Positions 35,717-63,724 of a stretch of 64,000 bases of DNA are shown one piece after another. Made by a program: the position numbers and the translations under genes. The notes beneath the pieces were generated by a model, which was not told where the DNA came from, did not search any database, and worked only from the letters and a program-made list of their open reading frames with translations. Positions within the stretch are counted from its first letter, which is position 1; each line of letters starts with the position of its first letter. Source of the DNA: Blastococcus xanthinilyticus (GTDB lineage: Bacteria > Actinomycetota > Actinomycetes > Mycobacteriales > Geodermatophilaceae); assembly GCF_008124835.1 (NCBI RefSeq), contig NZ_VNHW01000006.1, forward strand, positions 124,001 through 188,000. The letters run 5' to 3'.

Positions 35717-35790
35717 GCGGGTGTAGCTCAATGGTAGAGCCCCAGCCTTCCAAGCTGGCCATGCCGGTTCGATCCCGGTCACCCGCTCCA
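35717..35790 (+). tRNA. tRNA-Gly(TCC)
   Basis: Acceptor GCGGGTG/CACCCGC, D arm GCTC/GAGC, anticodon stem CCAGC/GCTGG with loop CTTCCAA (anticodon TCC), T arm CCGG-TTCGATC-CCGG, discriminator T and encoded CCA (35788-35790). It is on the plus strand with convergent genes downstream. Bases 35753-35792, from the anticodon stem to just past CCA, recur in degenerate form at 63685-63724. Confidence 0.95.
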
Positions 35791-35851
35791 CGTCGTGACC
35801 TGGAACTGCGGTGTCGACCAGCTCCGGCATTCCCGTCGCCCGGCCCTCGAG

Positions 35852-36511
35852 TCAGGGTGCGGACGATGTCCCGGGACAGGTGCGCACGAAGTCCTGGACT
35901 CGGGCATCGCCGGAGCTGCCGTCGTGGACGAGTGGGAGTCGTCGGCGCAGCCAGCGCACGAGCTCGACCACGACGGTGATGAGCGCGGCCAGCCCTACGC
36001 CGACGAGCACGCCGAGCAACGGGTCGTGTGCGAACGCCGCCGAGCCGAGGAAGCCGAGCAGCACGCACATCGCGGTCCACAGCACGGCGGCGATCGCGGT
36101 CGCCGCCGCGAAACGGGCCGGCGGATACCCCAGGGCGCCGCTGGCCGTCGTCACCGCCGTCCGGCCGCCCGGGATGAAACGGGCGGACACGATCAGCTGC
36201 CCGCCACGCCGGTCCAGTGCGCGTCGCACGCCCGCCAGCCGCCCGGGCCGGGCGCCGAGCCGGCGGCCGAGCAGCCACCGGCCGGCGCCGTAGGCCAGGT
36301 GGTCGCCCACGAACGCACCCAGCACGGTCGCGAGGAACACCAGGAAGAGCAGCGGGGTGCCCGTGGTGAACGCGAAGACGCTGGCGCTGATCACGAGTGT
36401 CTCGCTCGGCAGCAGCGGCAGGACGGCGTCGAGGGCGACCAGGGCGAAGATCGCCAGGTAGACCCACGGAGAGGTCAGGGTGGCCTCCAGCAGGTCGGTC
36501 AGCCAGGTCAC
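35852..36511 (-). CDS. DedA-family membrane protein
   Basis: A 219-residue DedA/SNARE-associated (VTT) membrane protein from GTG 36511, overlapping the DUF998 gene (GTGA). It shows ESLVISAS-like SETLVISASVFA, GAFVGDHLAYGAGRWLLGRR and the conserved RFIPGGRTAVTTASGALGYP (G-x-x-x-P/R motif), then LWTAMCVLLGFLG. DedA proteins move phospholipids or undecaprenyl-phosphate across the membrane. Last gene of a four-gene operon with a glycosyltransferase, which fits a lipid-carrier role. Confidence 0.88.
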   Translation of the reverse strand: MTWLTDLLEATLTSPWVYLAIFALVALDAVLPLLPSETLVISASVFAFTTGTPLLFLVFLATVLGAFVGDHLAYGAGRWLLGRRLGARPGRLAGVRRALDRRGGQLIVSARFIPGGRTAVTTASGALGYPPARFAAATAIAAVLWTAMCVLLGFLGSAAFAHDPLLGVLVGVGLAALITVVVELVRWLRRRLPLVHDGSSGDARVQDFVRTCPGTSSAP

Positions 36512-37227
36512 CGGAGACCTCCCTCGGCAGCGGGCGGCGAAGCCTCGGCACCGGCCAGGCCCGCGGCGACGAGCACCGCCGTGGCCGCCGTGCCGGCCAG
36601 CAGCAGCCGCTCGACCAGCCCGATGCCCGGCACCGGATCGGCGCCCGTGGACACGACGGGCACGTGCAGGGCCAGGAAGGACGCGCCCAGCCCGCCGAGG
36701 CCGACCGCCGCCCCGCGCAGGGCGCGGCGAGCCGGGAGTGAACAGGCCGCCGCGACCAGGAGCCCGACGACCGACGGCACCACCATCGCCACGGCGGCCG
36801 CCACCTGGTGCACCCGTCCCCACGCCGTCGTGTCGAGCCCGGGCAGGTCGGTGGGGAACGCGGCCACCGCGGCGAGGCCGACCGACCACAGCGCCAGCAG
36901 TCCGAGCACCGCGGTCCGCCGGGCACCGGCCGCCATGCCTCGGTGCACGCCGAGGGCCGTACCGGCCGCCGCGATCTCCACCCCCACGATGCAGCCCGCC
37001 AGCCACCAGCCGCCGGCGGGCCGGTGCACGGCGTCGCTGAGCATGCTGTCGAGGGTGTTGTCGCCGACGACGTCGGTGCCGATCCCGGCCAGGACTGCGA
37101 CGGCCACGCCGAGCAGGACGACCGGGAACCACGGCGCGGACCGGCTGCCGGTTCCCGCGACCGGGCGGACCTCCGCTGCGACGGCCGTCGCCGCCCCGGG
37201 TCGCGGTGGCGCCGAGAGCGCGGTCAT
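36508..37227 (-). CDS. DUF998 membrane protein
   Basis: A 239-residue protein with about six hydrophobic segments, of the DUF998 type. Family features are the loop FPTDLPGLDTTAWGRVHQVA and the later GIGLVERLLLAG. ATG 37227 overlaps the glycosyltransferase stop (ATGA), and its own stop overlaps the DedA start. Function of the family is unknown; the operon suggests a part in surface-lipid or glycan export. Confidence 0.82.
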   Translation of the reverse strand: MTALSAPPRPGAATAVAAEVRPVAGTGSRSAPWFPVVLLGVAVAVLAGIGTDVVGDNTLDSMLSDAVHRPAGGWWLAGCIVGVEIAAAGTALGVHRGMAAGARRTAVLGLLALWSVGLAAVAAFPTDLPGLDTTAWGRVHQVAAAVAMVVPSVVGLLVAAACSLPARRALRGAAVGLGGLGASFLALHVPVVSTGADPVPGIGLVERLLLAGTAATAVLVAAGLAGAEASPPAAEGGLR

Positions 37228-38432
37228 GTCGGCACCAGGACGTCGCGGCGGGGCCGGTCGGCCGAACGGGAGCGGAGGCAGGCGTCGTAGAGGCCGACGA
37301 ACGCGCTGAGCGTGGCGCCCAGGTCATGCTCCGCGGCGACGGCCCGGGCGCGCCGGCCCATCCGCCGGGCGGACGCCGGGTCGTCCAGCAGGGCGGTCAG
37401 CCGCCCGGCGAGCTCCTCGACGTCACCGTGCCGGTAGAGCCAGCCGGTCCGCCCGTGGTGCACCAGCTGCGGTAGCGCGCCGGCGTCGACGCCCAGCACC
37501 GGCAGCCCGGTGGCCATCGCCTCCAGGGTCACCAGGCTCTGCAGCTCCGCGGTGCCGGCCATGCCGAAGAGGTCCGCGGCCGCGTAGGCCTCCGGCAGCT
37601 CGGCGTCGCTCAGGACGCCGGTGAACGTCACCGCACCCCTCACGCCCCGCGCTGCGGCCAGGGCCTCGAGCCGCCCGCGTTCCTGCCCGTCCCCGACGAC
37701 GAGCAGGTGGAGGTCCCACCGCGCCCGGACCAGGGCGAGCGCCTCGATGAGCTCGTGCACGTTCTTCTCCGGGTCCAGCCGGCCGACGTAGGCCAGGACG
37801 GGAACCGACGGCAGGCCGCGCGACCGGCGGAACCGGGCGCCGTCCCGCTCTGGGGAGAACCGATCCAGGTCCAGCCCGCAGGAGATGGGCAGCACGGGCC
37901 CGGGCACCCCGGCCGACTCCGCCAGGGCCGCGGCGAACGGCGTGGGGCTGGTGACCACGTCGGCGAGGGCGAGCACCCGGGCGGCGTCCCGCCACGCCCA
38001 GGCGTGCGCCCGGCGCCGGACGGCGGCGCCACCGGGCACGTAGTGCAGCAGGTTCTCCGGCATGAAGTGGTTGGTGGCGACCACGGGGATGCCCAGTGCG
38101 CGCGCCGCACGGAGCACCGCCCGTCCCACCAGGAAGTGGCTCTGGATGTGCACCACGTCCGGTCGCACCGTCCGGAGCACCGCTCGCACGCGGCGGTGCA
38201 GCCCGGCGGGCGGGCAGATCCGGAAGCCGCGGCGGAGCAGCACCGGCACGGAACGCACCCGGTGCTCGGTGACGCCTCCGGTGGCCTGCGCGGAGTTGCT
38301 GTGATGGCTCTGGGAGGGGGCGAGCACGTGCACCTCGTGCTCGGTGGCCAGGCCTGCGGCCAGCCGCTGGGCGAAGTAGGACGCGCCGTTGACGTCGGGC
38401 GCATAGGTGTCGGCGGCGATCAGGATCTTCAC
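37224..38432 (-). CDS. Glycosyltransferase family 4
   Basis: A 402-residue GT-B glycosyltransferase from GTG 38432, 7 nt after GAGGAG. The N-terminal domain has ADTYAPDVNGASYFAQRLA and HVLAPSQSHH; DVVHIQSHF and TNHFMPENLL follow. The nucleotide-sugar domain has AYVGRLDPEKNVHELIEALA, VVGDGQERGRLE and the ExxxxxE region TAELQSLVTLEAMATGLPVL. The closest match by eye is the alpha-mannosyltransferase (PimB/MgtA-like) group acting on lipid acceptors. Flanked by two DedA-type proteins in one operon. Confidence 0.88.
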   Translation of the reverse strand: MKILIAADTYAPDVNGASYFAQRLAAGLATEHEVHVLAPSQSHHSNSAQATGGVTEHRVRSVPVLLRRGFRICPPAGLHRRVRAVLRTVRPDVVHIQSHFLVGRAVLRAARALGIPVVATNHFMPENLLHYVPGGAAVRRRAHAWAWRDAARVLALADVVTSPTPFAAALAESAGVPGPVLPISCGLDLDRFSPERDGARFRRSRGLPSVPVLAYVGRLDPEKNVHELIEALALVRARWDLHLLVVGDGQERGRLEALAAARGVRGAVTFTGVLSDAELPEAYAAADLFGMAGTAELQSLVTLEAMATGLPVLGVDAGALPQLVHHGRTGWLYRHGDVEELAGRLTALLDDPASARRMGRRARAVAAEHDLGATLSAFVGLYDACLRSRSADRPRRDVLVPT

Positions 38433-39037
38433 TGGGGAACTCCTCGAGTCCGTAGGGAGAACAACCTCTTGGCGACGAGCGAGACGGCGAGCACACCGGC
38501 ACCCAGGGCCGCGCTGAGCGCGACGAAGGCCCAGGGCGAGCTGGTGATCCCCGCGATGTGCGGACCCGCCAGCAGGCCGAGGGCGACCAGCACGGCCGCT
38601 CGCGCGGAGCTGGTGAACGCGACCCAGCCGACGAAGCGGCGGTAGGGGACGCCGGCCAGACCGGCGGCCAGGAACGCCGGGACGGCGCCGATGTCGACGA
38701 GCTTGGCGCCGATGACGACCCGCGGAAGGTGACGCCCGACGTCCTTCCGGAGCCGCGCTGCGCGGGGTCCGGAGACGCCGAGCCGGGCGAGCAGCGGGGA
38801 CACGCGCCGATGCCCGCCGCACCGGCCGAGGGCGAACAGCAAGCTGTCGCCGACGACGTCGGCGGAGACTGCCAGCAGCCACACGGGCAGCAGCGCCAGC
38901 ACACCGGCGCCGACCATCGAACCGGCCGCCACCGTGGTGGCCGGTCCCTCCAGCAGCATCAGCACCGCGAGGACGAGATAGGGCTGCACCTGGTCGCTGC
39001 TCCCTCCCGACCCGCCCCGGGCGACGGGGCGGATCAA
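38429..39037 (-). CDS. DedA-like (VTT domain) membrane protein
   Basis: A 202-residue membrane protein, first gene of the operon, overlapping the glycosyltransferase start (GTGA). It has VTT-like features: LLEGPATTVAAGSMVG (the E-GP helix), DVVGDSLLFALGRCGG, KLVDIGAVPAFLAAGLAGVP in place of the usual RFIPG loop, and a hydrophobic C-terminal half. It is more diverged than the DedA protein at the other end of the operon. Probably a lipid scramblase-like partner of the glycosyltransferase. Confidence 0.75.
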   Translation of the reverse strand: MIRPVARGGSGGSSDQVQPYLVLAVLMLLEGPATTVAAGSMVGAGVLALLPVWLLAVSADVVGDSLLFALGRCGGHRRVSPLLARLGVSGPRAARLRKDVGRHLPRVVIGAKLVDIGAVPAFLAAGLAGVPYRRFVGWVAFTSSARAAVLVALGLLAGPHIAGITSSPWAFVALSAALGAGVLAVSLVAKRLFSLRTRGVPQ

Positions 39038-39142
39038 CCGCCGGACCGTCCGGCGGCGAGGAGAAGCTAGGACGGCGAGGACGCCGTGGTCGTCGGCCTG
39101 CGGAGCTGTTCGGCATGCCTCCGGGGTGGCTGCACCAGGGGC

Positions 39143-39171
39143 GGGACCCCGTACCGCGGTAGGGGGGTCCC
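39143..39171. promoter_or_regulatory. Nested concentric dyads between operon and sensor kinase
   Basis: Outer arms GGGACCCC (39143-39150) and GGGGTCCC (39164-39171) enclose the perfect palindrome TACCGCGGTA (39152-39161), with the two symmetry centres within 1 bp of each other. It lies in the 261-bp divergent region, 128 bp before the sensor kinase ATG. A strong candidate operator for the response regulator encoded next to it. Confidence 0.55.
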
Positions 39172-39298
39172 CCGCTCGGGAGAGGGACGACGGTCCCGCC
39201 GCGACGCTCTAGCGTGCATGCAGGAGAGCCCGCGGAAGGGGATCGCCGGCGGGGCCGGTGCCCGTCCGGACGGCGGAGGATCGGCAGGTGGAGGACGG

Positions 39299-40573
39299 AT
39301 GGCGGTGACCCGGCCGGTCGGCCGTGCCCCGGCGTGGTCCTGGACGGCGGGCACGGCGATCGCCGGGATCCTGCTGGTCCTCCTGCAGGTACCGACCACG
39401 ACGGGTACCTACGGCCTGGCGCTCGGCGCGGGGATACCGCTCGGCCTGCTGCAGGGCCTCGCGCTCCCGCTGGCGTTGCGCCGTCCACTGCTCGCCACCG
39501 CCGTCCAGTTCGTGGCGGCGGCGGCCACCGCCCTGGTGGTCGACCCCGTGGACGGGCATGCCTGGCCGCTCACGGTCCCGGGTGTCCTGCTGCTCGTGGC
39601 GCACGTCGGGCTGCTGGCGGTCTCCCGCGGCTGGCGGCCGGCCGCCCTGGTCTGGGGCGCCTCGCTCGGAGGCGTCGCCTGCCTGATGGCCGTCCAGGTG
39701 GGCGAATGGGGCAGCGAGACCGCCGGTGACATCACCGTCGCGGTCTACGCGGCCAGCTCTCTGCTCGTGCTGGTGGCCGGGTCGGTGTGGCAGCAGCGGT
39801 CCCGGCTGGCCGGCGAGCTGTCGGCGGCCCAGCGCGACGTGGCGGTCGAGCAGGCCCGCCGGGCGCTGGTCGAGGAGCGCACCCGGATCGCGCGGGAGCT
39901 GCACGACGTCGTGGCGCACACGATGTCGGTCGTGCACATGCAGGCCACGACCGCCCGCTTCCGGCTCCCCGACCTCAGCTCCGGGGCCGCCGCCGAGCTG
40001 CAGCAGATCGCCGGCTCCGCCAAGGCGGCCATGGCGGAGATGCGCCAGCTGCTCGGCGTGCTGCGGGACGACGGGGCGAACGCCCCGGTCACGCCGACCC
40101 CGACACTGGCCGACCTGCCCGAGCTGGTCGCCGGAACGGCGCGCGGTGGAACGGCGGCCCGGCTGACGGTGGACCCGGCGCTGGCGGTCCGGGAGGTCCC
40201 GGAGATCGTGCAGGCGGCGGCGTACCGGGTGATCCAGGAGGCGCTGAGCAACGTCGTCCGGCACGCCCCGGGTGCGCCGGCGACCGTCGACGTCCGGCTC
40301 GCACCGGACGGCCGCGCGATCGAGCTGTCGATCAGCAACCCGCCGTCCGCGTCCCCCGGTCCGGGCCTCGACGTCCGTGACACCACCCGGGCACGACACG
40401 GGCTGATCGGCATCCGCGAACGCGCAGCGCTGCTGGGGGGCTGGTCGAGCGCGGGTCCCGTACCCGGTGGCGGATGGCAGGTGGGTGCCCACCTGCCGCT
40501 GGCGGCGGAGGTCCCCGTCGCGACCGACCTGCCCGACCACGGCGTGGCGGCCGGACCAGGGGCTGCTCCGTGA
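39299..40573 (+). CDS. Sensor histidine kinase, HisKA_3 (DesK-like)
   Basis: A 424-residue sensor kinase. ATG 39299 follows GGAGG closely; the long frame upstream is not coding. Five or six hydrophobic segments (about 13-165) lead to a short coiled coil and the phospho-acceptor box RIARELHDVVAHTMSVVHMQ, then MRQLLGVLRDDG and the ATPase domain (YRVIQEALSNVVRHAPG, ARHGLIGIRERAALLGG). It overlaps its response regulator. This is the second system of the same class in the window. Confidence 0.93.
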   Translation: MAVTRPVGRAPAWSWTAGTAIAGILLVLLQVPTTTGTYGLALGAGIPLGLLQGLALPLALRRPLLATAVQFVAAAATALVVDPVDGHAWPLTVPGVLLLVAHVGLLAVSRGWRPAALVWGASLGGVACLMAVQVGEWGSETAGDITVAVYAASSLLVLVAGSVWQQRSRLAGELSAAQRDVAVEQARRALVEERTRIARELHDVVAHTMSVVHMQATTARFRLPDLSSGAAAELQQIAGSAKAAMAEMRQLLGVLRDDGANAPVTPTPTLADLPELVAGTARGGTAARLTVDPALAVREVPEIVQAAAYRVIQEALSNVVRHAPGAPATVDVRLAPDGRAIELSISNPPSASPGPGLDVRDTTRARHGLIGIRERAALLGGWSSAGPVPGGGWQVGAHLPLAAEVPVATDLPDHGVAAGPGAAP

Positions 40574-41247
40574 TCCGCGTGCTCGTCGTCGACGACCAGT
40601 CGATGATCCGGCTGGGCATCCGCTCCGTCGTCGACGCCCAGGAGGACATGACCGTCGTCGGCGAGGCGGAGAACGGGGAACGGGCGCTCGCGGCGGCCCG
40701 GAGCCTGCGTCCCGACGTCGTGCTGATGGATGTGCGGATGCCCGTGCTCGACGGGCTGCAGGCGACGCGGCGGATGCTGGCCGCGGACCAGCCGGGCAGC
40801 CACCGGCCGAAGGTGGTGGTGCTGACCACCTTCGACCTCGACGACTACGTCTACGCCGCGTTGCAGGCGGGAGCCGGCGGCTTCCTGCTCAAGGACAGCG
40901 AACCCGAGGAGGTGCTGCGGGCGATCCGGGTGGTCGCCGCCGGTGAGGCCCTCCTGGCGCCGGGGGTGACCCGCCGGCTGATCGAGCAGTTCGTCGACGC
41001 CCGCAGCACCGCCCGCCCGCCCGACCCAGCGCTGAACGGGCTGACCGAGCGGGAGCGGGAGGTGCTGACGCTGATGGCGGCCGGCCGGTCCAACGCCGAG
41101 ATCGCCGCGGCGCTGTTCATCGCCGAGCAGACGGCCAAGAGCCACGTGAGCCGGGTGCTGCAGAAGCTGCACCTGCGCGACCGCGTGCAGGCAGTGGTCT
41201 ACGGCTACGAGAACGGGCTGGTCCGGCCCGGTGACCCGGACCGCTGA
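40570..41247 (+). CDS. NarL/FixJ-type response regulator
   Basis: A 225-residue regulator from GTG 40570 (GTGA overlap). Receiver: VVDDQSMIRLGI, Asp in VLMDVRMPVLDG, VLTTFDLDDYVYAALQAGAG, Lys in GFLLKDSE. LuxR HTH: LTEREREVLTLMAAGRSNAE and EQTAKSHVSRVLQKLHLRDR. It is closely similar in design to the regulator at 33780-34442. The nested dyad ahead of the kinase gene may be its own target. Confidence 0.93.
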   Translation: MIRVLVVDDQSMIRLGIRSVVDAQEDMTVVGEAENGERALAAARSLRPDVVLMDVRMPVLDGLQATRRMLAADQPGSHRPKVVVLTTFDLDDYVYAALQAGAGGFLLKDSEPEEVLRAIRVVAAGEALLAPGVTRRLIEQFVDARSTARPPDPALNGLTEREREVLTLMAAGRSNAEIAAALFIAEQTAKSHVSRVLQKLHLRDRVQAVVYGYENGLVRPGDPDR

Positions 41248-41278
41248 GCCGGTGGCGGGGGCCGCCGGAGTGCAGCCA

Positions 41279-42448
41279 CTAGCCGGTGCGTCCAGGCACC
41301 CCCTCGTCGGCGGACGAGTGGGGCGCGCTGACGCGTGCCGCTCCGTCGCCTGTGAAGACCTCGCGCGTCTCGTCCCGTCCCGGTCCGCCGCGCCCTCGCC
41401 GACGGCTACCGCGTGGCCGAGGCCGGGGGTGTTGCGGCAGCGGCGTGCTCCCTTCCTTCCCGATCGACGGCAGCGTCGGGACGCTGCGGACGATCGTGTC
41501 CTGCGCCCAGCGCTCGCTGAACCCCGCGAGGAAGGCGACGCTCGCGAAGAAGTAGCCCTCGACGTCGGCCTCGCCGGGCCGGGCGATCGGCAGGAGTCCC
41601 CCCTCCATGAAGACGTAGAGGGCCGCGCCGAAGACCGCGCCGATCAAGGGCCGGAATGCCCCGGCCAGCAGCGTGACGGCATGACCCTGCTCGCTGTCGA
41701 TGACGAGGTTCTGCCCCCGGGTGATGCGCACCATCACGCTCACGATGGCGCCGATGCCTCCGCAGGCGAGACATATCTGCATGAGCGTGGGCGGAGTGCC
41801 GATCAGTTCGAGCCTTCGCGCCGACCACGTCATCGCGACGATGACGGCACCGCCTATCGGCAGCCCGACCAGGTACCAGCGCAGCGACGCCTTGCGCGCC
41901 GCGGACCGGCGGAAGGCATCGAGCCGTTCCAGTTCGTCCTTCACCGCGTCGAGGGCCGCCTGGATGCGCTCGCGATCCCCGGGCGCACCCAGATTGCCCG
42001 TGGCCTTCAGGGAGTCCAGGACCCCCAACAGGTACGCGATGATCACGAAGATCATCTCGGTGAGGACCTTGCGCGAACGGCCGCCGAGCACGAGTCCGGA
42101 CTCGCGTTCGAGGGCCCGCGCCCGCCACAGCGCCGCCTCGAAGGAGGGTTGGACACCCGCCGTGATGGCGTTGTCGTAGCGCACCCGGATCCTGCGCACG
42201 CCACGGGGCCCAGCCATGAACCCGGGCGGCTGGATCAGGACGGCACCGGTGTTCCTGATGTTCCGGGCGTAGAACTCGTCCTTGATCTTCCCGTTCTCCC
42301 GCTGGTACTCCAGCTTGACCTGTTCGTAGGGCTCGGAACCCGATCTCTGGTCCTGCGTGTAGGCCCTGATCAGGTCGTCCAGCGACGGAGGCAACTGCGC
42401 CCGTTCCCTGACGCCGTTCGACTGCGCGGTCCTGTTGCGGAGAACCAT
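41279..42448 (-). CDS. Large membrane protein with N-terminal soluble domain, unrecognised
   Basis: A 389-residue protein from ATG 42448, which follows GGGAGG by 4 nt. The first about 120 residues are soluble (VRIRVRYDNAITAG with an aromatic/proline stretch TGAVLIQPPGFMAGP). Five hydrophobic segments follow: near MIFVIIAYLLGVLDSL, WYLVGLPIGGAVIVAMTW, LMQICLACGGIGAIVSVMV, LIGAVFGAALYVFMEGGLLP and GYFFASVAFLAGFSERWAQD. The tail is long, basic and disordered. The GFSERWAQD ending of the membrane part looks conserved, but I cannot name the family. Convergent with the response regulator (31 bp). Confidence 0.7.
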   Translation of the reverse strand: MVLRNRTAQSNGVRERAQLPPSLDDLIRAYTQDQRSGSEPYEQVKLEYQRENGKIKDEFYARNIRNTGAVLIQPPGFMAGPRGVRRIRVRYDNAITAGVQPSFEAALWRARALERESGLVLGGRSRKVLTEMIFVIIAYLLGVLDSLKATGNLGAPGDRERIQAALDAVKDELERLDAFRRSAARKASLRWYLVGLPIGGAVIVAMTWSARRLELIGTPPTLMQICLACGGIGAIVSVMVRITRGQNLVIDSEQGHAVTLLAGAFRPLIGAVFGAALYVFMEGGLLPIARPGEADVEGYFFASVAFLAGFSERWAQDTIVRSVPTLPSIGKEGSTPLPQHPRPRPRGSRRRGRGGPGRDETREVFTGDGAARVSAPHSSADEGVPGRTG

Positions 42449-42601
42449 GGTGCCTCCCGAGAACAGGCCCTCAGTAGGCCCCCGTGCCACCACGCCGTCA
42501 AGGACTCACCGTGCCGCACGTGCTGGCACCGGAACGTCGTGCCGAGCGGCGACCGGCCCGCTCCGCCGGTGCTGCTCGGCGTCGCGGGCCGGACGTCGGG
42601 A

Positions 42602-43045
42602 TCAGTCGGGGTAGGCGATGTGCACGTCCTTGGGCGACGGCGCACCCTCCCCGGTCTCGACCAGCTGCTTCAGGCTCATCAGGTAGGTGGCCCACTTCGT
42701 GCTGCAGTGGTGCATGAACTCCACCGGCTCCGCCCAGCCCTGGTGCTCGAACAGCACGACCGTGTAGTCGCCGTCGCGGCGCAGCTGCCAGTCGACGGTC
42801 GTCCCCACCCACTCCGCCGGGCCGGCGACCACCTCCCACGTGACCCGCTCGCCCGGCCGCCGGTCGAGAACCTTCATGTCGAAACCGCCGGGCGGAAACC
42901 GGAACTCCAGCACCCCGCCGACGTCGGGGTCGCCCGTGACGTCGTCGGTCCACCACCCGGCCAGCCCCTCGACCGTGGTCAGCGCGTCGTACACCTTCTC
43001 GGGCGCGGAGTTCTCGATCCCCACCCGGTGCAGGATGTCCACCAT
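42602..43045 (-). CDS. SRPBCC (AHSA1-like) domain protein
   Basis: A 147-residue START/Bet-v1-like protein of the activator-of-Hsp90 homologue family: HRVGIENSAPEKVYDALTTV, LAGWWTDDVTGDP, LEFRFPPGGFDMKVLDRRPG, and WQLRRDGDYTVVLFEHQGW. ATG 43045 lies 9 nt after GGGAG. It is last in a three-gene set SRPBCC-ArsR-SRPBCC read leftward. The domain binds a hydrophobic ligand; the ligand is unknown. Confidence 0.85.
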   Translation of the reverse strand: MVDILHRVGIENSAPEKVYDALTTVEGLAGWWTDDVTGDPDVGGVLEFRFPPGGFDMKVLDRRPGERVTWEVVAGPAEWVGTTVDWQLRRDGDYTVVLFEHQGWAEPVEFMHHCSTKWATYLMSLKQLVETGEGAPSPKDVHIAYPD

Positions 43046-43141
43046 TGCCTCGTTCTCCCTCTGTGCTCGTGGAACCGCGCGGGGGCAGGACCTGTCTCCG
43101 CGTTGAGGGGCCGCCCCCTCGACCTGACCGCTCCGGTGAGC

Positions 43142-43492
43142 TCAGGCCTGCCTGGTGCGCTGGATCGTCTCGGCGATGCGCTTGATGCGCTGCAGCCGTG
43201 CGTCCCATGCCGAACCGACCGACGACAGGTCGGCGATCGCCCGCGCGAGCTGGGCCTCGTCGACCCGGTAGCGCTTCTCCCGGCCCTGCGGCATCCCCCG
43301 CACCAGCCCGGCCCGGTCGAGCACGCCGAGGTGCTTGGCCACCGCCTGGCGGCTCACGGGCAGCCGCTGGCCCAGGGTGGTCGCGGTGCCGTCGCCGTCC
43401 TGGAGCAGCAGGTCGAGCATGCGGCGCCGGGTCGGGTCACCGATCGCCGACCACAGGTCGTCGTCGACCTGCCGGGCCGGGGTGCCGCTCAC
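43142..43492 (-). CDS. ArsR-family winged-helix regulator
   Basis: A 116-residue regulator from GTG 43492, overlapping the preceding SRPBCC gene (GTGA). Winged helix: DDLWSAIGDPTRRRMLDLLL, LGQRLPVSRQAVAKHLGVLD and GLVRGMPQGREKRYRVD. No metal-binding Cys motif is present, so it is of the non-metal, ligand-sensing type that usually accompanies SRPBCC genes. It probably binds the paired CAA-N5-GGTTG sites upstream of the operon. Confidence 0.88.
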   Translation of the reverse strand: MSGTPARQVDDDLWSAIGDPTRRRMLDLLLQDGDGTATTLGQRLPVSRQAVAKHLGVLDRAGLVRGMPQGREKRYRVDEAQLARAIADLSSVGSAWDARLQRIKRIAETIQRTRQA

Positions 43493-43950
43493 CGCCGGGC
43501 CCCGAGGTCCGCCGCGTAGGACACCAGCCGCGGCAGGAAGAAGTCCCACCCGGTGGTGTGCTCCCGGTACCGCTCCTCGAGGACGGCGGCCTCCCAGCCC
43601 TGCTCGCGGAAGCCGGTCTCGGTCATCCTCAGCAGCGTCCCGCTGCCCGAGGGAGTCAGGTCGAAGGTGACCAGCAGCGAGTTGCCGTGCACCGCCGCTG
43701 CCCCGGCCGGGTGGGTCCAGCGGAAGGAGAACGTCCGCGGCGGCTGCACCTCGACGACGCTGAACGACACCACCGTGCCGCCGGCAGCCGGGTCGCCGAA
43801 CACGATCTCGCCCTCCGCGCCGGGCACCGGCTCGTACCGGGCGTCGTCCGGCCACCACTGCTTCACGTGCTCCGGGCTGCTGACCACCTCGAAGACGACG
43901 TCGGGCGTTGCCTCGATGTAGACCTCTCGGGTGAGGGTGCCGAGCTCCAT
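43489..43950 (-). CDS. SRPBCC (AHSA1-like) domain protein
   Basis: A 153-residue AHSA1-like protein: TREVYIEATPDVVFEVVSSP, HVKQWWPDDARYEPVPGAEG and TGWDFFLPRLVSYAADLG. Two in-frame ATGs compete: 43956 sits directly on the AGGAGG ribosome-binding site with no spacing, while ATG 43950 has the normal 6 nt, so 43950 is chosen. First gene of the operon, with two operator-like sites upstream. The domain probably senses or binds the same ligand as the second SRPBCC protein. Confidence 0.88.
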   Translation of the reverse strand: MELGTLTREVYIEATPDVVFEVVSSPEHVKQWWPDDARYEPVPGAEGEIVFGDPAAGGTVVSFSVVEVQPPRTFSFRWTHPAGAAAVHGNSLLVTFDLTPSGSGTLLRMTETGFREQGWEAAVLEERYREHTTGWDFFLPRLVSYAADLGARR

Positions 43951-43963
43951 TACCATCCTCCTG

Positions 43964-43976
43964 CAATATTTGGTTG
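43964..43976. promoter_or_regulatory. ArsR operator candidate, proximal copy
   Basis: CAATATTTGGTTG matches CAA-N5-GGTTG, 14 bp upstream of ATG 43950 and overlapping the likely leader. The only AT-rich tract nearby. The same pattern recurs 46 bp further upstream. Confidence 0.6.
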
Positions 43977-44005
43977 CGGGTGAGGTTAGCGCCGTCCAGA
44001 GAGAT

Positions 44006-44440: not shown

Positions 44441-44455
44441 CCGGGGCCGGAACCC

Positions 44456-56132: not shown

Positions 56133-56169
56133 CGCGTCATCCCTCGCTCGTCGACATCACCACCACTGC

Positions 56170-56187
56170 TGTTCACGTATGCGAACA
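56170..56187. promoter_or_regulatory. IclR-type operator between kdgK and the regulator gene
   Basis: TGTTCACGTATGCGAACA: arms TGTTC/GAACA are exact, and the 7-bp arms differ at one base. It lies in the 140-bp divergent region of kdgK and iclR. A near copy occurs upstream of ALDH (48002-48019), which links the two transcription units. Confidence 0.65.
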
Positions 56188-56272
56188 GCGTCCGCAACAG
56201 TGACCGAGGCCACTCAATCAACGCGTCGAACGGTTGTCAAGGATGTGAACGCGATCTGCTAACCTGGACGGC

Positions 56273-57088
56273 ATGGTGGCTCAGCTCGGCATGGCCGGAG
56301 GAGCGGATAAGACCACGGATCACCCGACGGACGACGTCGGTGCGACCGGCGACGAGTTCCGGCCGGTGAAGTCCGCGGCCCGGGTGCTCGAGGTCCTGGA
56401 GGCCCTCGCCACGGACGGTCCCCTCACGCTGCGAGACCTCGCGGCTCATCTGCAGGTCCCCAAGAGCAGCATGCATGCGCTGCTGCGGACGATGCAGTGG
56501 CGCGGCTGGCTGGAGACCGACGTCACCGGGACCCTGTACGGCCTCGGAGTCCGCTCACTGCTCGCCGGCTCCGCCTACGTCGACAGCGACGCCGTCGTCC
56601 GCCAGACCGCCCCGGTGCTCGACCAGCTGGCCCAGCAGACCGGGGAGACGGTGCACCTCGGTCGCATCGAGGGGGGCGACGTCGTGTATCTCGCCAAGCG
56701 GGAGTCGACGCACCCGCTCCGGCTCTTCTCCTCCGTCGGACGGCGCCTGCCGGCCCATTCCGTGGCCCTCGGCAAGGCGCTGCTCGCCGAGATGGCACCC
56801 GAGGCGGCGCTCGCCTGCCTGCCGCCCCAGCTCGATGCGATGACGCCGAAGACGATCACCGACCGTGCGCGGCTGCTCGAGGACCTCGATCGGATCCGGC
56901 GCACGGGTTACGCGATCGACGACGAGGAATCCGCCTCGGACCTGCGCTGCTTCGGGGTCGCCCTGCGACAGCGTGCGGGCACGCGCGATGCGATCAGCAT
57001 CTCCGTGCCGGTCGTCCGCCTGGACGAGGCACGCGAGCAGGAGATCGTCTCGCTGCTCCTGCAGGCCCGGGCCACGTTCAGCCACTGA
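56273..57088 (+). CDS. IclR-family transcriptional regulator (KdgR-like)
   Basis: A 271-residue IclR regulator. Winged helix at about residues 33-95 (SAARVLEVLEALATDGPLTL, HLQVPKSSMHALLRTMQWRG), then the effector domain (ETVHLGRIEGGDVVYLAKRE, LPAHSVALGKALLAEMAPE, YAIDDEESASDLRCFGVALR). A promoter with TTGTCA at 56234 and TAACCT at 56260 would give a very short leader. It is divergent from the uronate operon, so it most likely controls it in response to KDG or a related keto-acid, as KdgR does elsewhere (inference). Confidence 0.9.
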   Translation: MVAQLGMAGGADKTTDHPTDDVGATGDEFRPVKSAARVLEVLEALATDGPLTLRDLAAHLQVPKSSMHALLRTMQWRGWLETDVTGTLYGLGVRSLLAGSAYVDSDAVVRQTAPVLDQLAQQTGETVHLGRIEGGDVVYLAKRESTHPLRLFSSVGRRLPAHSVALGKALLAEMAPEAALACLPPQLDAMTPKTITDRARLLEDLDRIRRTGYAIDDEESASDLRCFGVALRQRAGTRDAISISVPVVRLDEAREQEIVSLLLQARATFSH

Positions 57089-57117
57089 CCACCTGCTCGC
57101 CTCAGAAGGGGACTGCC

Positions 57118-57345
57118 ATGCCCAACATCACCGTCGAACTCCTCCGCGGCCGGACCGTGGACCAGCGCCGCGCCTTCGCCCAGGCCGTCGCGGACAGCGC
57201 TGTGGAGATCCTCGGCGCCCGCCGCCAGGACGTCCGCATGGTGTTCACCGAGATCACGCCCGACATCGTCGCCAACGGCGGGGTCCTCGCCTCCGAGGAC
57301 GACAGCCGCGCCGCGGTGGTCGCAGCCCTCGGTGACGAGGTCTGA
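57118..57345 (+). CDS. 4-oxalocrotonate tautomerase-like enzyme
   Basis: A 75-residue tautomerase. ATG 57118 is followed by Pro2, which becomes the catalytic N-terminal proline (PNITVELLRGRTVDQRRAFA), and Arg residues of the active site lie in ARRQDVRMVFTE. AAGGGG precedes by 6 nt. It lies 29 bp after the IclR gene, so it is co-transcribed. Members interconvert keto and enol forms of short diacids; a role on a keto-uronate intermediate is possible but not shown. Confidence 0.85.
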   Translation: MPNITVELLRGRTVDQRRAFAQAVADSAVEILGARRQDVRMVFTEITPDIVANGGVLASEDDSRAAVVAALGDEV

Positions 57346-57364
57346 ACACACTTCTCCGAGCTCC

Positions 57365-57399
57365 CGAAGCCGGCCGGGCCCTGGGCCCGGCCGGCTTCG
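57365..57399. terminator. 17-bp perfect hairpin after the tautomerase
   Basis: CGAAGCCGGCCGGGCCC (57365-57381) and its exact complement (57383-57399), one base apart, so several inner pairs must open to form a loop. It lies 20 bp after the tautomerase stop. Confidence 0.85.
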
Positions 57400-57727
57400 T
57401 GCCGTGATGGCCCAGCACCGGGCGGACGGTGAGGCGCGGCGACGCCTACCGAGCCGGGGCACCGGCCGGCGAGCAGGCTGACGAGGGGTTCGCCCCCCGA
57501 CCTACCGGGTGTGGCGGCCCCACCGGGACCCGGCCGCGGCACCGTGACGAGGCGACATCGCCGAGCAGCGTCGGCGCCCTGCCGCGGGCGCGGCAGGGCG
57601 CCGACGTACCGCCCCAGGGTCTCGACCGCGCAGTCTGGAGGATCCGCAGGCCGCGCGGTGGAGGGACTTGAGGACGGACACCACGGGGCCCGGAGGCTGT
57701 CCTCCGGACCCCGTGGGTGCTCTGGGC
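57400..57727. other. Gene-free spacer with two further hairpins
   Basis: A 328-bp convergent spacer with no supported gene. A perfect 17-bp repeat with loop GGGC lies at 57569-57585 and 57590-57606. A 16-bp repeat with one mismatch (57681-57696 with 57701-57716, core CCACGGGG) lies 11 bp after the oxidase stop and is its likely terminator. Including the hairpin at 57365, three strong stems separate the two transcripts. Confidence 0.75.
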
Positions 57728-60700
57728 CTAGCCGAGCTTGTAGCTGACCGTCTGCCGCACCGAGGCGGCCAGATCGCTACCCCGGTAGACCACGGTCATC
57801 GTCCCGGAGTTCTTGGTCCGCTTCGGCAGCGTCAGGACCACCGAACCGTCCCGCAGAGTTCCGGTGACCGTCGTGCCACCCGTGGCCGTGACGTCGACCT
57901 CCCCGGTGAGCGGGATGTCGTCGGAGGCCGTGAGGGACACCGTGACGGTCGCGTTCTTCCCGTCCTTCACCGGCGCCCCCACCGTCATGGTCGGGGTGAC
58001 CTTCTCCACCTCGACCGACAGGTACGTCACCGAGGGGGCGTGGGCCTCGTCGCCCACGTAACGCACGCTCAGCAGGTGCGATCCCGGGAGCAGTGACTTC
58101 GCCGGCAGCGTGACCGTGGCCTGTCCCGCCGACAGGGTCGCCGTCCCGACGACCGTCGTCCCCTCCCGCACCGCGACCACACCTTCGGCCGTCCCCGGGG
58201 TCACGGTCGCGACGACCGTGCCCGGCTGGCCGTAGGTGAACGTCTCGGCCGTCGCAACGGTCTGCGTGACCGCCGGCGGCGCAGCCCGCTCGACGGTGAG
58301 CGTCACCCGGACCGGCTCGGACTTCGCGCTGCCGTCGGTCACGGCGTACGTGAAGAGGTCCTTGCCGCTGAACCCGGCGTCGGGGGTGTAGGTGAACGAC
58401 CCGTCCGCCCCCACCGTCACGGTTCCGTTGACCGGCTGGGTGACGTCGGTAGCCGTCAGTGCGTCGCCGTCGGCATCGGTGTCGTTGGCGAGCACCCCGG
58501 GCGCCGGGACGGTCAGGGCCATACCCTCCTCGGTGGTGTAGGCGTCGGAGACGCCGACCGGGGCGGTGTTCGGGCTGTCCGGCGGCTGGTAGAGCTCCTG
58601 GACCTGCTCGGCCGTGAGCTCGTAGCCGTACATCCGGAAGTCGTCGACCAGGCCGTCCAGGTGCGGGTCGCCCCAGCTGGTGTTCCCGATGAAGTTGGCC
58701 GTGGTGCCGCCGGCCCCGATGTCACCGATGTCGATGGTGAAGTCGGTGCGCGTGCCCTGGAGCTCGCCGTCGAAGTAGATCTTCCCGGTCGAGCCCCGCT
58801 GGGTGAACACCACGTGCGTCCACTCGTTCAGGGGCAGGTCGTTGCCCGCGCCGAGCGCGAGCCGCTCCTGGGCCGGCACGCCGGCCTTCTTGAACGTGGC
58901 GGCGAAGCCGGTGGCCCCGTTCGCCTGCGTGGAGGACTGCAGCAGGAAGAACTTGTCGGTGCTGCTGCCGATCTGCACGTGCGGCACCCAGTTGGGCAGC
59001 GCGTCCGGCCTGATCCACAACGACACGGTGAACTCCGTGTCCATGCCTGCCGAGATGTTGTCCGGCAGGTCGACGAAGTGCGGGGTTCCCGAGGCGCCAC
59101 CGGGCAGCGACACCGCGGGCCCGAACCGACCGTCCGGGGTCCAGGTCGTGTCGCCGGAGAGCACCGCCGGACCGATCGACGGATCGGTGCCGGAGTTGCC
59201 GGCCTGGGTGCCCGCGCCCTCGTCGAAGGTGTAGTGAACGGGGACCCCCTCGCCCACCGGCGGACGCTCCACGGTGTGGGTCACCGATGCCGTGGAGTTG
59301 CGCCAGCCTTCTGCGGCGAGGTACCGGACCTCGATCTGGTGGTCACCCGGGGACAACGCGACCTCGGGGAACGAGACGGCTCCGGCGGTCACCACAGCGG
59401 CGTCGCCCTTGCGCGCCCCGTCGATCCACAGCTCGGCACGGCCCTCGGCCGGCTGGCCGTCGGCGCCCTGCACCTCGGCCGACACCGTCAGCGGCTCACC
59501 GAACGGTGAGGGCGACGCCGGGGCGACCGAGACCGTCGTGGTCGTCCGCAGCGCCGAGCCCTCGGCGTGCAGTGCGGCCACGTCGGTCGCGGAGAGCGTG
59601 GACCGGTAGAGCCGGACCTCGTCCATGAGGCCGTTCAGCGCGGCATCCGGGTACCCGTTCCGACCGAGCCAGTTGTCGGCGGTCGCGCCGAGGTCGGCCA
59701 TGTCGATGGTCAGGTCGTCGCGGCTGGCGATCGCGGCACCGTTGAGGTACAGCGTGCCGGTCGTGCCGCTCCGCGTGAAGGCGACATGGTTCCACTGGCC
59801 CAGGACCAGGTCGGTGGCCGGGCCGGCGTGGACCCGCTCCTGCAGATCGGCTCCGGGTGCCTTGAAGGTGGCCGCCAACCCCGTCGGGCCGTCGGCCTGG
59901 GTGCCGGTCTGGATCTGGAAGAAGCCGTCGGTCCCGTTGCCGATGTGGAACAGGCCGGTCCAGTTCGTGCGCGGCTCGTCGGGACGGACCCAGAACGACG
60001 TGGAGAAGTCCGCCGCACCCCGGAGCAGGTCGTCCGGCAGGTCCACCGCGTTGGCGCGGTCGCCGCCCGGCAGGTCGACGGCCGTGCCGTAGACGCCCTC
60101 CTCGGACCACGCCGTGCCGCCGGTGAGGGTCGCCGAGCCGACGGACGCGTCGCCGCCGGTGTTGGCCGCCGTGGTGCCGGCACCCTCCTCGAACGAGTAC
60201 TGCACGGGCACGTCACCGGTGCCGGGGTCGGCACTGATGATCACGAGGTCGTCGACGACCATGCCGGCACCGGTACCGGGCCCGGCGAGGGTGAGCGTCT
60301 CCGACCGGGCCGACGCCGTGAAGGTCCCGACGTAGGTCCCGAAGGTGACCGCCCGGCCGCTCTGCGACGGGTTGCCCGCCGCGGTCGCGGTGATGGTGGC
60401 GTCCAGGGACCCGATGGCGACCCGCGCCGTCGCGTCACCGCTCTCGGCCGCTGCCCGGCTGTCGCGGGCGTAGCGCAGCGAGAGCCGGTACTCACGGCCG
60501 ACGTCGAGACCGGAGATCCGGCGCTCGATGGTGCCGGCCGGGCCCAGGGCCAGGTGGTAGCCGACGTGGCCCAGGCCGCCGTTGCTCGGGGCCGTGGCAC
60601 GCACCAGCTGCACCGGGCTGACGATCCCCCACGGGGACATCCGGCCGTTGCCCGGCGCGACGTCCACCACGGTCGGCGGGGTGGCGCTCCGCCACTCGGC

Positions 60701-63190
60701 GGGCACCCGGGGGTACTCGAACTGGTCGACGACCTGCGGGGTCCGCGTGTCCATCGGGACGGTGGGATCGATCGTCACGATCGAGGCCACCGAGGGCGTC
60801 CCGTCGGCGTCGAAGACGAACAGCATGTAGGCACCGGGGGGCGCGTACGTGCCGTCCTGCGGGGCGGTGATGCTGACCTGTCCGGGACCGGTCTGCACGA
60901 ACTCGAGGTCCTGGAAGTTCTGGTCGTTGTTGAACCCGTGCGTCACCGACCCATTGCGCACCAGGGTCACGCGGGAGACGTCACCGGAGGTGGCGACGTC
61001 GAACGTCCCGGCGTAGCCGATGCTCTCCGGGGCCTGCAGGATCTCCGGGCGGGCCGCAGGGGCGTCGCCGTCGAAGAGGTAGGCCGGCGAGTAGTACTCG
61101 ACGTCGGTGTAGTTCCGCGGACCGGGGGTGCCGCCGCCACCGAGCATCACGCGCCCGTCGGGCAGCAGGAGCGCGGTGGAGTGGTAGAGCCGGGCGTGCT
61201 CGTGCGGCACGTCGACGGTGGTCCACTTCCCGGTCTCCGGGTCCCAGATCTCCGGGTTGGTCACGACGTCGTCGCGGCCGTTGTTCTCCCGGCCGCCGCC
61301 GGTGACCAGCACGTCCCCGTCGGGCAGGACGGTCGAGGTCGCCCAGTGGCGCTGGTACCGCATCGGCTCGGTGGGTGCCATCACCGGGTTCGCCGTTCCG
61401 TCGGCTCCGGTGATGTCGACGGTGAAGCCGGCGCGCGCGCCGTCGGGGCCGCCACCGTTGGCCCACCAGCCGCCACCGACCTGGAGGATCTTGCCGGGCC
61501 GGTACATGGTGGCCGTGGAGGTCGCGCCCACCGGGTTGCCGAGGCCGCCCTGGCTGGCGACGGCCGCCGGGAGCGTGCCGCGCAGCGTCAGGGTGCCCTC
61601 GCCGCTGGGGTCGAGCTCGAACATCTGCGTGCCGCTGATGTTGAACAGGTTGCCGTTGCCCGGCGCCACGAAGGCACGCGGGTACCACCAGCGGTTCTCG
61701 TCCTGGCCCGCGTGGTCCCCGCCGCCGTCGCCGTAGGCGACGGAGCTGGTCGCGCCGGTCAGCACCCGCCACCCGGCTCCCTCGTCGGCGGTGCGGATCT
61801 CGGGTGTGTGCACGCCCGGGCCGGCGACACCACGCACGCTGCCGCCCTGCACGACGATGTCGCCGTTGGGCATCGTGGTCCCGGTCGGGTACCACCGGGG
61901 GTAGTTCATCGGGGCCTCGGTCTGCAGGCCGTTGTTCGTTGAGTAGCTTGTGACGCCGACGGCGCCGTTCACCGGGTCGTTGAAGTCGCCGAGGCCGTCG
62001 TCACCGCCCACGGTCATCGTGGAATGGCGGTGCGGGTCCTGCACCTGCATCGCGCAGAACAGGTCGGTGTAGGTGGTGTTGGGGACGACTCCGTCGCGGA
62101 GGTTCGCCAGCGTGCGCGGCGTCGCGGGGTCCCACACGTCGATCTCGAACTGGCCGCCCTGCGCGACGCAGCTGTTGCCCGACCAGTCGTAGGGGTTGCC
62201 GTCGGTGCACCCGGTCGACACGCTGCCGAAGGACTGCACCCGCCCGTCGGAGGTCAGGGCGACGTTGATGGGCACCAGCGGCCAGGGCGTGACACCGCTC
62301 CAGGCGCCGACCTCCTCCTTGACCGGCGGCGAGCAGTCTGCGGCGACGACGCCGGCGGCGTAGGCCAGGCCCTGTCGCATCTGCGCCTGCATGACCGGCT
62401 CGGCGTACGCCGTCCCCTCGTGGCCCATCGCGGTGTACCAGGACCGGCCCTCGTCGATCTCCTGGCACCACGTGATCGGGTGCGAGGTGCCCTGGCGGCC
62501 GCCGCTGTCGTCGGTCACGTACGAGGCCTCGTCGGCCTCGAGCAGCGTGCGGACGTTCGGGGCCGGGTTGACCACCCAGTCGTACCACTCGTCGCTGCGG
62601 GTGAACTCCGCCGGCAGGCCCTGCGTGAGCGGGTGCCCCGGGTCCTTCACGACGACGCGACCGGGCCGCACGGCCGGGTTCTCCGGGTGCCCCTCCGAGA
62701 CGGCACCGACGAGGCGGGCGTAGAAGGGGTTCACGTCGTGCTCGCTCTGCCCCACCGACCAGCCGGCGTAGTGCAGGCCCATGTAGCCGCCGCCGCCGCG
62801 GATGAACGTCTCGAGGGCCGCGCGCTGGGCGTCGTCGAAAAGGATGCCGCCGGTCTGCGCGAAGACGACCGCGTCCTTGTCCGCGAGGTTCGCGTCGGTG
62901 AAGGTGCCGGCGTCGTCGGTCTCCTGGATCTCCACCGTCTGACCGGACGAGGCGCCGATCTCGGTGGCCAGCTGACGGACGGCCTCACGCGCCTGGACGT
63001 GGGAGGCGTGGAAATTGGGCTTGTAGAAGAGAACGATCTTGAGCACGCCGTCCACCGGCGCCGCGACGGCCTTGGCCGCCGATGCGATGCCGAGCACTCC
63101 GAACGCGAGGGCCAGTGACAGCAGGAGCGCGAACGATCGGCGGAGCGGCGCATGAGCGCGTCGGTGGACGGGTGGATGGCTCGACGTCAT
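57728..63190 (-). CDS. Secreted ThuA / galactose-oxidase-like copper radical oxidase with LamG and Ig modules
   Basis: A 1,820-residue exported protein; signal peptide to about residue 44. Order: ThuA-like domain (about 48-290, LKIVLFYKPNFHASHV, GGGGYMGLHYAGW); galactose/glyoxal-oxidase propeller and DUF1929-like domain (about 300-860); LamG (about 994-1210); Ig-like (1217-1307); second LamG (1313-1530); cadherin-like (1541-1634, LANDTDADGDALTATDVT); Ig-like repeats to the end. The copper-site set of galactose oxidase is present: Cys in DLFCAMQVQ (about 379), Tyr in RWYPTGT (about 434), Tyr-His in RLYHSTALLLPDGRV (about 670), and His in VTHGFNNDQNFQ (about 750). It should oxidise an alcohol or aldehyde to give H2O2. 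The LamG domains probably bind glycans. Confidence 0.88.
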   Translation of the reverse strand: MTSSHPPVHRRAHAPLRRSFALLLSLALAFGVLGIASAAKAVAAPVDGVLKIVLFYKPNFHASHVQAREAVRQLATEIGASSGQTVEIQETDDAGTFTDANLADKDAVVFAQTGGILFDDAQRAALETFIRGGGGYMGLHYAGWSVGQSEHDVNPFYARLVGAVSEGHPENPAVRPGRVVVKDPGHPLTQGLPAEFTRSDEWYDWVVNPAPNVRTLLEADEASYVTDDSGGRQGTSHPITWCQEIDEGRSWYTAMGHEGTAYAEPVMQAQMRQGLAYAAGVVAADCSPPVKEEVGAWSGVTPWPLVPINVALTSDGRVQSFGSVSTGCTDGNPYDWSGNSCVAQGGQFEIDVWDPATPRTLANLRDGVVPNTTYTDLFCAMQVQDPHRHSTMTVGGDDGLGDFNDPVNGAVGVTSYSTNNGLQTEAPMNYPRWYPTGTTMPNGDIVVQGGSVRGVAGPGVHTPEIRTADEGAGWRVLTGATSSVAYGDGGGDHAGQDENRWWYPRAFVAPGNGNLFNISGTQMFELDPSGEGTLTLRGTLPAAVASQGGLGNPVGATSTATMYRPGKILQVGGGWWANGGGPDGARAGFTVDITGADGTANPVMAPTEPMRYQRHWATSTVLPDGDVLVTGGGRENNGRDDVVTNPEIWDPETGKWTTVDVPHEHARLYHSTALLLPDGRVMLGGGGTPGPRNYTDVEYYSPAYLFDGDAPAARPEILQAPESIGYAGTFDVATSGDVSRVTLVRNGSVTHGFNNDQNFQDLEFVQTGPGQVSITAPQDGTYAPPGAYMLFVFDADGTPSVASIVTIDPTVPMDTRTPQVVDQFEYPRVPAEWRSATPPTVVDVAPGNGRMSPWGIVSPVQLVRATAPSNGGLGHVGYHLALGPAGTIERRISGLDVGREYRLSLRYARDSRAAAESGDATARVAIGSLDATITATAAGNPSQSGRAVTFGTYVGTFTASARSETLTLAGPGTGAGMVVDDLVIISADPGTGDVPVQYSFEEGAGTTAANTGGDASVGSATLTGGTAWSEEGVYGTAVDLPGGDRANAVDLPDDLLRGAADFSTSFWVRPDEPRTNWTGLFHIGNGTDGFFQIQTGTQADGPTGLAATFKAPGADLQERVHAGPATDLVLGQWNHVAFTRSGTTGTLYLNGAAIASRDDLTIDMADLGATADNWLGRNGYPDAALNGLMDEVRLYRSTLSATDVAALHAEGSALRTTTTVSVAPASPSPFGEPLTVSAEVQGADGQPAEGRAELWIDGARKGDAAVVTAGAVSFPEVALSPGDHQIEVRYLAAEGWRNSTASVTHTVERPPVGEGVPVHYTFDEGAGTQAGNSGTDPSIGPAVLSGDTTWTPDGRFGPAVSLPGGASGTPHFVDLPDNISAGMDTEFTVSLWIRPDALPNWVPHVQIGSSTDKFFLLQSSTQANGATGFAATFKKAGVPAQERLALGAGNDLPLNEWTHVVFTQRGSTGKIYFDGELQGTRTDFTIDIGDIGAGGTTANFIGNTSWGDPHLDGLVDDFRMYGYELTAEQVQELYQPPDSPNTAPVGVSDAYTTEEGMALTVPAPGVLANDTDADGDALTATDVTQPVNGTVTVGADGSFTYTPDAGFSGKDLFTYAVTDGSAKSEPVRVTLTVERAAPPAVTQTVATAETFTYGQPGTVVATVTPGTAEGVVAVREGTTVVGTATLSAGQATVTLPAKSLLPGSHLLSVRYVGDEAHAPSVTYLSVEVEKVTPTMTVGAPVKDGKNATVTVSLTASDDIPLTGEVDVTATGGTTVTGTLRDGSVVLTLPKRTKNSGTMTVVYRGSDLAASVRQTVSYKLG

Positions 63191-63684
63191 GGAGATCCCC
63201 TGGGCTCGATAGGAAGCCGGCAGTCCGGACCGGCCCCTCTATGGGCGGGCACGCTAGGGCGCGTCGCATACAGCGTCAAGAACTCTGTCCTCACACGTGA
63301 ATATCTACCGAAGGCCGTTCATGTACGTGGACGGTATCGTGCCCGGGCGGCCCCCAGGAAGGAGGTGCACGCCGACCAGGAAGCGGCAGGGACCAACGCT
63401 GCTGGGCAGGGCGCGGCATTGATCCTGAGCTGTGGCGTGGCCATGCTGGGCGCATCCGGCCGACGCCCCGACCAGGGCAAGCAGCGGTCGCTGAATGGCT
63501 GCGAGGCCGCTGTGGGCCGCGGTGACCTCCCGCGAGGCCGCAGAGACGGGTAGGCGTCGGCCGCCCTTCCGTCCGGGCGCGGGGGTCCGTTCGCCCGACG
63601 GCCGACCGCCGCCGGCCGAGGGGCGGCCGGACGAGGCTCCGGCCACGCTTCACCTCTGGTCGGCCCGGGAGCGCAGGCAGAGCG
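63191..63684. other. Non-coding region upstream of the oxidase gene
   Basis: About 494 bp without a gene that I can support; the open frames are short and overlap on both strands. It contains the promoter at 63251-63279 and, at 63315-63334, the imperfect palindrome CCGTTCATGTACGTGGACGG (16 of 20 symmetric), which weakly resembles the IclR-type site (12 of 18). The rest shows no feature. Confidence 0.5.
63251..63279 (-). promoter_or_regulatory. Sigma-70-like promoter of the oxidase gene
   Basis: On the minus strand TTGACG (complement at 63274-63279), a 17-bp spacer and TAGCGT (complement at 63251-63256). This would start transcription near 63244, some 54 nt before ATG 63190. Box quality and spacing are good for a housekeeping-type actinobacterial promoter. 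Confidence 0.6.
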
Positions 63685-63724
63685 AGCCGGCCATGCCGGT
63701 ACGACCCCCGTCACCGGCTCCACG
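63685..63724 (+). repeat. Degenerate copy of the tRNA-Gly 3' half, att-like
   Basis: These 40 bp match 35753-35792 (tRNA-Gly from the 3' side of the anticodon stem to past the CCA) at 35 of 40 positions, in the same orientation; GGCCATGCCGGT and CTCCACG are identical. The T-loop TTCGATC has become TACGACC, and there is no 5' half, so it is not a tRNA. It looks like the distal attachment site of an element once integrated at tRNA-Gly. Confidence 0.75.

Follow-up and report, generated by a model that had tools for sequence, protein, structure and literature searches.

A probably composite genomic island without an integrase at the tRNA-Gly(TCC) gene of Blastococcus xanthinilyticus

Blastococcus xanthinilyticus is a soil bacterium of the Blastococcus group. 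In actinomycetes, some integrative and conjugative elements use tRNA genes, and such an element is defined by an integrase together with an FtsK-type transfer gene. Islander is a catalogue of genomic islands in tRNA and tmRNA genes, and the filter described for it demands an integrase inside the island (PMC4383910). Cis-mobilizable elements (CIMEs) are described as keeping their att sites while integration and transfer genes are absent, in an account that also deals with accretion (PMC5704250). In the report on the tandem ssrA islands of Dehalococcoides, 15 islands are without integration modules and, according to its authors, might be cis-mobilizable elements (PMC3146451). The literature on Blastococcus and the Geodermatophilaceae that our search covered, with subscription papers mostly outside its coverage, contains nothing about the site studied here, judging by titles and the starts of abstracts. 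The main text of PMC3218068 makes no mention of Blastococcus, Geodermatophilus, Modestobacter or tRNA-Gly. Blastococcus figures in PMC11706625 for a dinuclease, and the part of that paper considered here holds no tRNA-Gly site.

Here we describe a tRNA-bounded interval in a 64,000-nucleotide stretch of B. xanthinilyticus DNA (contig NZ_VNHW01000006.1, positions 124,001 to 188,000), which we call the window. It was compared across 23 genomes of the genus, namely its own (G000) and 22 relatives. We consider it very probable that positions 35791-63684 are a composite genomic island without an integrase at a tRNA-Gly(TCC) hotspot, and that the island likely grew by repeated site-specific insertion. 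We call it composite because its two parts, a private segment of 8.9 kb and a module of 18.7 kb shared with one relative, differ in history.

The tRNA-Gly gene, its displaced copy and the search for an integrase

The intact tRNA-Gly(TCC) gene, called by ARAGORN at 35717-35790 on the plus strand, forms the left edge of the island and is the integration target in our reading. At the right edge, positions 63685-63724 of the same strand hold a displaced, degenerate copy of its 3' half, the scar, which is identical to the tRNA at 35 of 40 bases (88%; E 6.6e-7 in a search of its own 4.6-Mb genome). A preliminary description of the stretch had pointed to this pair, and both members are borne out. When up to 8 mismatches were allowed, the tRNA and the scar were the sole places for the 38-base 3' half in the window and the 39 kb to its right. 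The same search detected no inner scar at the 44.69-kb seam between the two parts of the 27.9-kb interval, which counts against a composite island. An ARAGORN call of tRNA-Leu(CAG) at 57327-57422 was rejected as a false positive over the end of a tautomerase gene and a strong hairpin; at Rfam gathering scores, Gly and Pro are the only tRNA calls between 28000 and 64000.

The scar has counterparts in G005 (Blastococcus sp. DSM 46786) and G007. In both, the corresponding position holds a tRNA-Gly fragment, and the same right flank comes next (74% identity to window 63683-64049 in G005 and 72% to 63767-64060 in G007). Thus, the scar is not a chance match. Together with a gene order that is broken relative to relatives, these counterparts support the earlier view of a tRNA-bounded region.

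It had also been claimed that the island has no integrase, and our searches agree. The PF00589 profile, at E ≤ 10, marks nine places in the genome, of which none is within the island; a single one shares the window's contig (G000:C6:52182) and lies about 107 kb to the left. With the integrases of three relatives as queries, tblastn found no match below E 1 in the window or the flank to its right. Three integrase queries likewise found no integrase in the reading frames of the G005 hotspot, and none of the five PF00589 places listed out of six in G005 is on its contig 37. Transfer domains were absent from the island ORFs scanned, with 43.96-44.69 kb among the stretches outside the scan.

Relatives do carry integrases at this site. 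A tyrosine integrase gene ends 39 bp before a tRNA-Gly fragment in G009 and 36 bp before the full tRNA-Gly gene in G021 (Blastococcus sp. VKM Ac-2987). In G008 (B. saxobsidens DSM 44509), G010 (B. saxobsidens 67B17), G014 and G018, a related integrase lies inside the hotspot and is not beside a detected fragment, which counts against the composite-hotspot reading. Away from the contig of the tRNA, fragments on G006:C3 and G018:C3 (L161, L162) and at G001:C6:144093-145630 each lie beside an integrase frame of 412-465 amino acids. The G006 and G018 integrases are close relatives, and sequence like that downstream of the tRNA follows their fragments.

The site across the genus

A full-length match to tRNA-Gly(TCC) is present in 23 of the 23 genomes, with the G012 copy at 91%. 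Of the 101 matches in the full listing of the search, 23 are full genes, 23 fall on another tRNA-Gly and 55 are fragments. The fragments are spread over 21 genomes; G002 and G011 (Blastococcus sp. TBT05-19) have none at all, and this also counts against our reading. Most fragments extend to about the 3' end, and 49 of the 55 start between tRNA positions 19 and 31, which corresponds to the anticodon-centred class in the terms given for Islander (PMC4383910). Further genera have fragments too (G049, G053 and G068, for example), among the matches listed for 96 genomes of the family, 19 of them from this genus.

Twenty-seven fragments, in 13 genomes, are on the same contig as the tRNA. All 27 lie on its strand, 23 downstream and 4 upstream, and G009 has six downstream fragments, the nearest 63 kb and the farthest 164 kb away from the gene. 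The other 28 are on other contigs; they include two in our own genome, 4 kb apart at G000:C18:1732-1767 and 5679-5733 (L192). This scatter is what favours the idea that the 40-bp match is a dispersed repeat or a product of chance and that the region is ordinary variable chromosome. We regard that idea as exceedingly improbable, given the uniform strand of the same-contig fragments and the fragments that G005 and G007 have at corresponding sites next to a shared flank.

Among the matches listed, 10 of the 23 genomes have tRNA and right flank on one contig; the two are separated there by 5.7 to 174 kb, and what lies in between is largely different. Measured to the nearest matched base of the flank, the distance is 5.7 kb in G022, 8.8 kb in G011, 23.8 kb in G005, 25.6 kb in G004, 28.4 kb in the window, 32.2 kb in G007, 52.4 kb in G018, 66.4 kb in G021, 109 kb in G008 and 174 kb in G009 (the query was 64.17-66.60 kb, of which only the far end matched in G004 and G009). 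Between the hotspots of 16 genomes, 42 other segments of at least 800 bp are shared, 20 of them at least 85% identical; some of these segments are close to the right flank or consist of integrase genes. Cross-species segments at 92-97% within the hotspot link G015 (Blastococcus sp. TF02A-35) with G018, G009 with G021, and G004 with G007.

In G021, a 38-39-base fragment of the 5' half of tRNA-Gly (G021:C1:521214-521251, L189) is next to the left flank; the full tRNA that directly follows the integrase gene comes 37.5 kb downstream. This arrangement suggests that an element came in at the 5' side. For comparison, Islander is reported to hold 159 islands with 5' fragments versus 3760 with 3' fragments (PMC4383910).

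The genes to the left of the tRNA had been taken for core genes, and this is true of only part of them. The stretch 24.08-28.80 kb is matched in 23 of 23 genomes; among the matches listed, all 21 genomes that have it on one contig with the tRNA carry it on the strand of the tRNA and upstream. The stretch 33.0-35.6 kb belongs to part of the genus only: G018 and G010 have it next to the tRNA, G009 has it in pieces, and G005 carries it on a different contig. The left flank reaches the tRNA in G018 and G010 and, with gaps, in G009 and G022. Nearer the tRNA there are differences among the genomes, and the tRNA-Pro counterpart ends 78 bp (G013) or 61 bp (G014) before tRNA-Gly. Directly left of the tRNA, window 33011-35569 holds a DUF2306 gene, a response regulator and a histidine kinase.

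To the right of the scar lies the remnant of a DUF4349 gene (63725-64000, plus strand, continuing to 64065 past the window end), a gene that is named in G005 and G021, and then an antiporter gene (64.17-66.60 kb). The 67.8-75.2 kb stretch of G021 is collinear with G020, and its sole match of at least 100 bp across the window and the sequence to the right of it is 63883-64065. The flank adjoining the scar therefore looks decayed in the window, with about 180 bp matched of a 7.4-kb stretch that is collinear in those two genomes.

An empty site, that is, an intact tRNA without the insert, had been suggested earlier as what would confirm the island. Ten of the 23 genomes allowed a judgement, and we found none in these; this result, too, counts against our reading. 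Two candidates were rejected. G011 is fragment-free, but the 8.8 kb after its tRNA is not the right flank of the relatives. After the tRNA of G005 come a decayed part of the right flank (a piece of what is presumably a cyclase-like gene, the end of an acetyltransferase gene and the DUF4349 gene) and then the module.

Contents and divergence of the island

The private segment (35791-44689, no strand assigned) has no close counterpart in the 22 relatives among the matches listed, with 13 candidates scored per genome. Its long non-self matches are at about 70-75%, and short ones (97-148 bases) reach up to 82%, again among the matches listed. It encodes a DUF998 protein (36508-37227, minus), glycosyltransferase domains (about 37340-38393, minus), a VTT membrane protein (38429-39037, minus), a histidine kinase with a response regulator (39086-41247, plus) and two AHSA1 genes (42602-43045 and 43489-43956, both minus).

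The module (44690-63349, 18.7 kb) is common to the window and G005, where it lies at the same tRNA. The two copies are 94% identical over 44690-57421 (12.7 kb) and 92% over 57562-63349 (5.8 kb), and G005 is the only one of the 22 relatives with the module at high identity among the matches listed (13 candidates scored per genome). Its genes are on the minus strand except where stated. The first encodes a protein with CopC and CopD domains (44712-46571; PF04234, PF05425), followed by an aldehyde dehydrogenase (46477-47973; PF00171, E 6e-173) and a sugar-type ABC transporter with ATPase, permease and binding protein (49054-52804). At 52884-56132 the module is predicted to encode an unsaturated-uronate pathway. 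A KduI-type isomerase (NCBIfam NF002091, 322.7 bits, cut-off 250) and a KDPG aldolase (TIGR01182, 164.6, cut-off 156.05) score above their curated thresholds; a KduD-like dehydrogenase falls just below that of kduD (TIGR01832, 326.5, cut-off 338.85), and a PfkB sugar kinase exceeds no NCBIfam cut-off and matches PF00294. Next come an IclR-type regulator (56273-57088, plus; PF01614) and a tautomerase gene (57118-57345, plus; PF01361). The last gene (57728-63190) encodes an 1820-amino-acid protein with ThuA, galactose-oxidase-like, laminin-G and Ig-like domains; its frame is open in G005 as well, where the protein is 93% identical.

These contents bear on the proposal of the preliminary description, in which a single old island arose by one integration, lost its integrase and is now fixed. 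In its favour, one scar only was detected in the window and no integrase match lies in the interval. However, 8.9 kb without a close counterpart stands beside 18.7 kb that is 92-94% identical to G005, and G005 comes close to having the module alone beside its own scar. Additionally, a scar counterpart adjoins the same flank in both G005 and G007, and the cargo of G007 is different, so that the scar is likely older than the present cargo. A single integration is thus not supported, and we give it little credence.

The divergence of the module from G005 differs from that of its surroundings. At fourfold-degenerate sites the difference is 0.139 for nine module genes (range 0.063-0.178), 0.277 for 10 left-flank genes and 0.346 for three right-flank genes (0.317-0.372); the module and flank gene values are separated by a one-sided Mann-Whitney test (P 9e-5). 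Genes were kept if they had at least 150 codons and at least 50 fourfold sites, lay within composition limits and were matched at more than 60% coverage and more than 70% protein identity. The CopC-CopD gene is outside this filter, and its difference of 0.179 is just over the kept range. As the module is far less diverged from G005 than the flanks are, it has a younger ancestry than they have. On these sequence comparisons, the younger ancestry points to horizontal exchange or to separate acquisition from a common pool.

Composition does not help to delimit the island. The codon-distance ratio is 1.37 for 17 island genes versus 1.21 for 45 flanking genes (P 0.05), GC3 is 0.930 versus 0.946 (P 0.02), and GC is 73.2-73.8% inside versus 73.6% on the left and 75.0% on the right. 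A comparison of codon use, suggested earlier as a check, thus gives almost no signal; we rejected composition as an island test since the differences are too weak, and this weakness counts against the composite-hotspot reading.

The ends of the module complicate its history. It stops 335 bp before the scar in the window (spacer 63350-63684) and 219 bp before it in G005. The two spacers give no BLAST match, and their best local score of 42.5 (200 shuffles averaged 29.7 and peaked at 41.5) indicates at best a faint likeness. With spacers so little alike, one clean integration of the same element leaves the pair unexplained, and it is not evident that the most recent move brought a single att-to-att element cleanly into each of the two genomes. 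This counts against a simple form of our reading. It could be argued instead that the module spread by homologous recombination via the conserved flanks, with the tRNA and scar recording an older event only. The module ends that do not coincide with the scar are consistent with this, as is the finding of no integrase with the module in the window or, within the scope given above, in the G005 hotspot and contig 37. On the other hand, in the three adjoining right-flank genes there is no tract that diverges less from G005, and the left neighbour of the module differs between the window and G005. A third-party donor could conceal such a tract. On balance, we think spread by homologous recombination rather unlikely, yet a serious rival to our model.

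Model and comparison with known systems

We retain the composite island as our model. We propose that tyrosine-recombinase elements crossed over in the part of tRNA-Gly that runs from the anticodon to the 3' end. Every insertion would have restored a full tRNA and displaced the previous fragment rightwards. The integrases may have been lost afterwards by decay, which would also have worn the outermost fragment. The module itself likely moved between species as passive cargo, aided by an integrase encoded elsewhere.

A broader version of this model is possible, and we offer it only tentatively. tRNA-Gly(TCC) may be a two-sided cargo dock of the whole family, where elements enter at the 3' side and, in one case or more, at the 5' side, with ordered scars, and with integrase-less cargo such as the uronate module crossing species via any integrase that recognises the scars.

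These results indicate that a single tRNA gene, whose scars can be read in 21 of the 23 genomes, is where this genus exchanges catabolic cargo. The module of the window looks like an integrase-less island that crossed species, and thus the question of whether such an island is dead or mobile in trans becomes testable.

How does the island compare with known systems? Unlike an actinomycete integrative and conjugative element, it has no integrase, and no FtsK-type transfer domain was found in the ORFs scanned. Its gene order is broken relative to relatives, as in islands in general. As described for Islander islands, an intact tDNA is followed downstream, on one replicon, by a 3' fragment in the same orientation, and 27.9 kb is within the 2-200 kb length range; unlike them, the interval is without an integrase ORF and the fragment is worn (PMC4383910). 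The Islander definition thus fits save for the absent integrase.

The closest concept is the CIME as set out in PMC5704250. The island resembles a CIME in its att-like repeats at both ends, in cargo stacked at one site and in having neither an integrase nor, in the ORFs scanned, a transfer domain. Compared with the attL and attR of a CIME, its right repeat is degenerate, 5 of 40 bases off the tRNA, and is a candidate att site at most. The closest published picture that we have seen is that of the tandem ssrA islands of Dehalococcoides. Those islands, as reported, use a serine recombinase and tmRNA, whereas we find tyrosine recombinases (in the relatives) and tRNA-Gly; in both, several displaced repeats lie downstream of one RNA gene, the cargo is catabolic, and some islands are without an integration module (PMC3146451).
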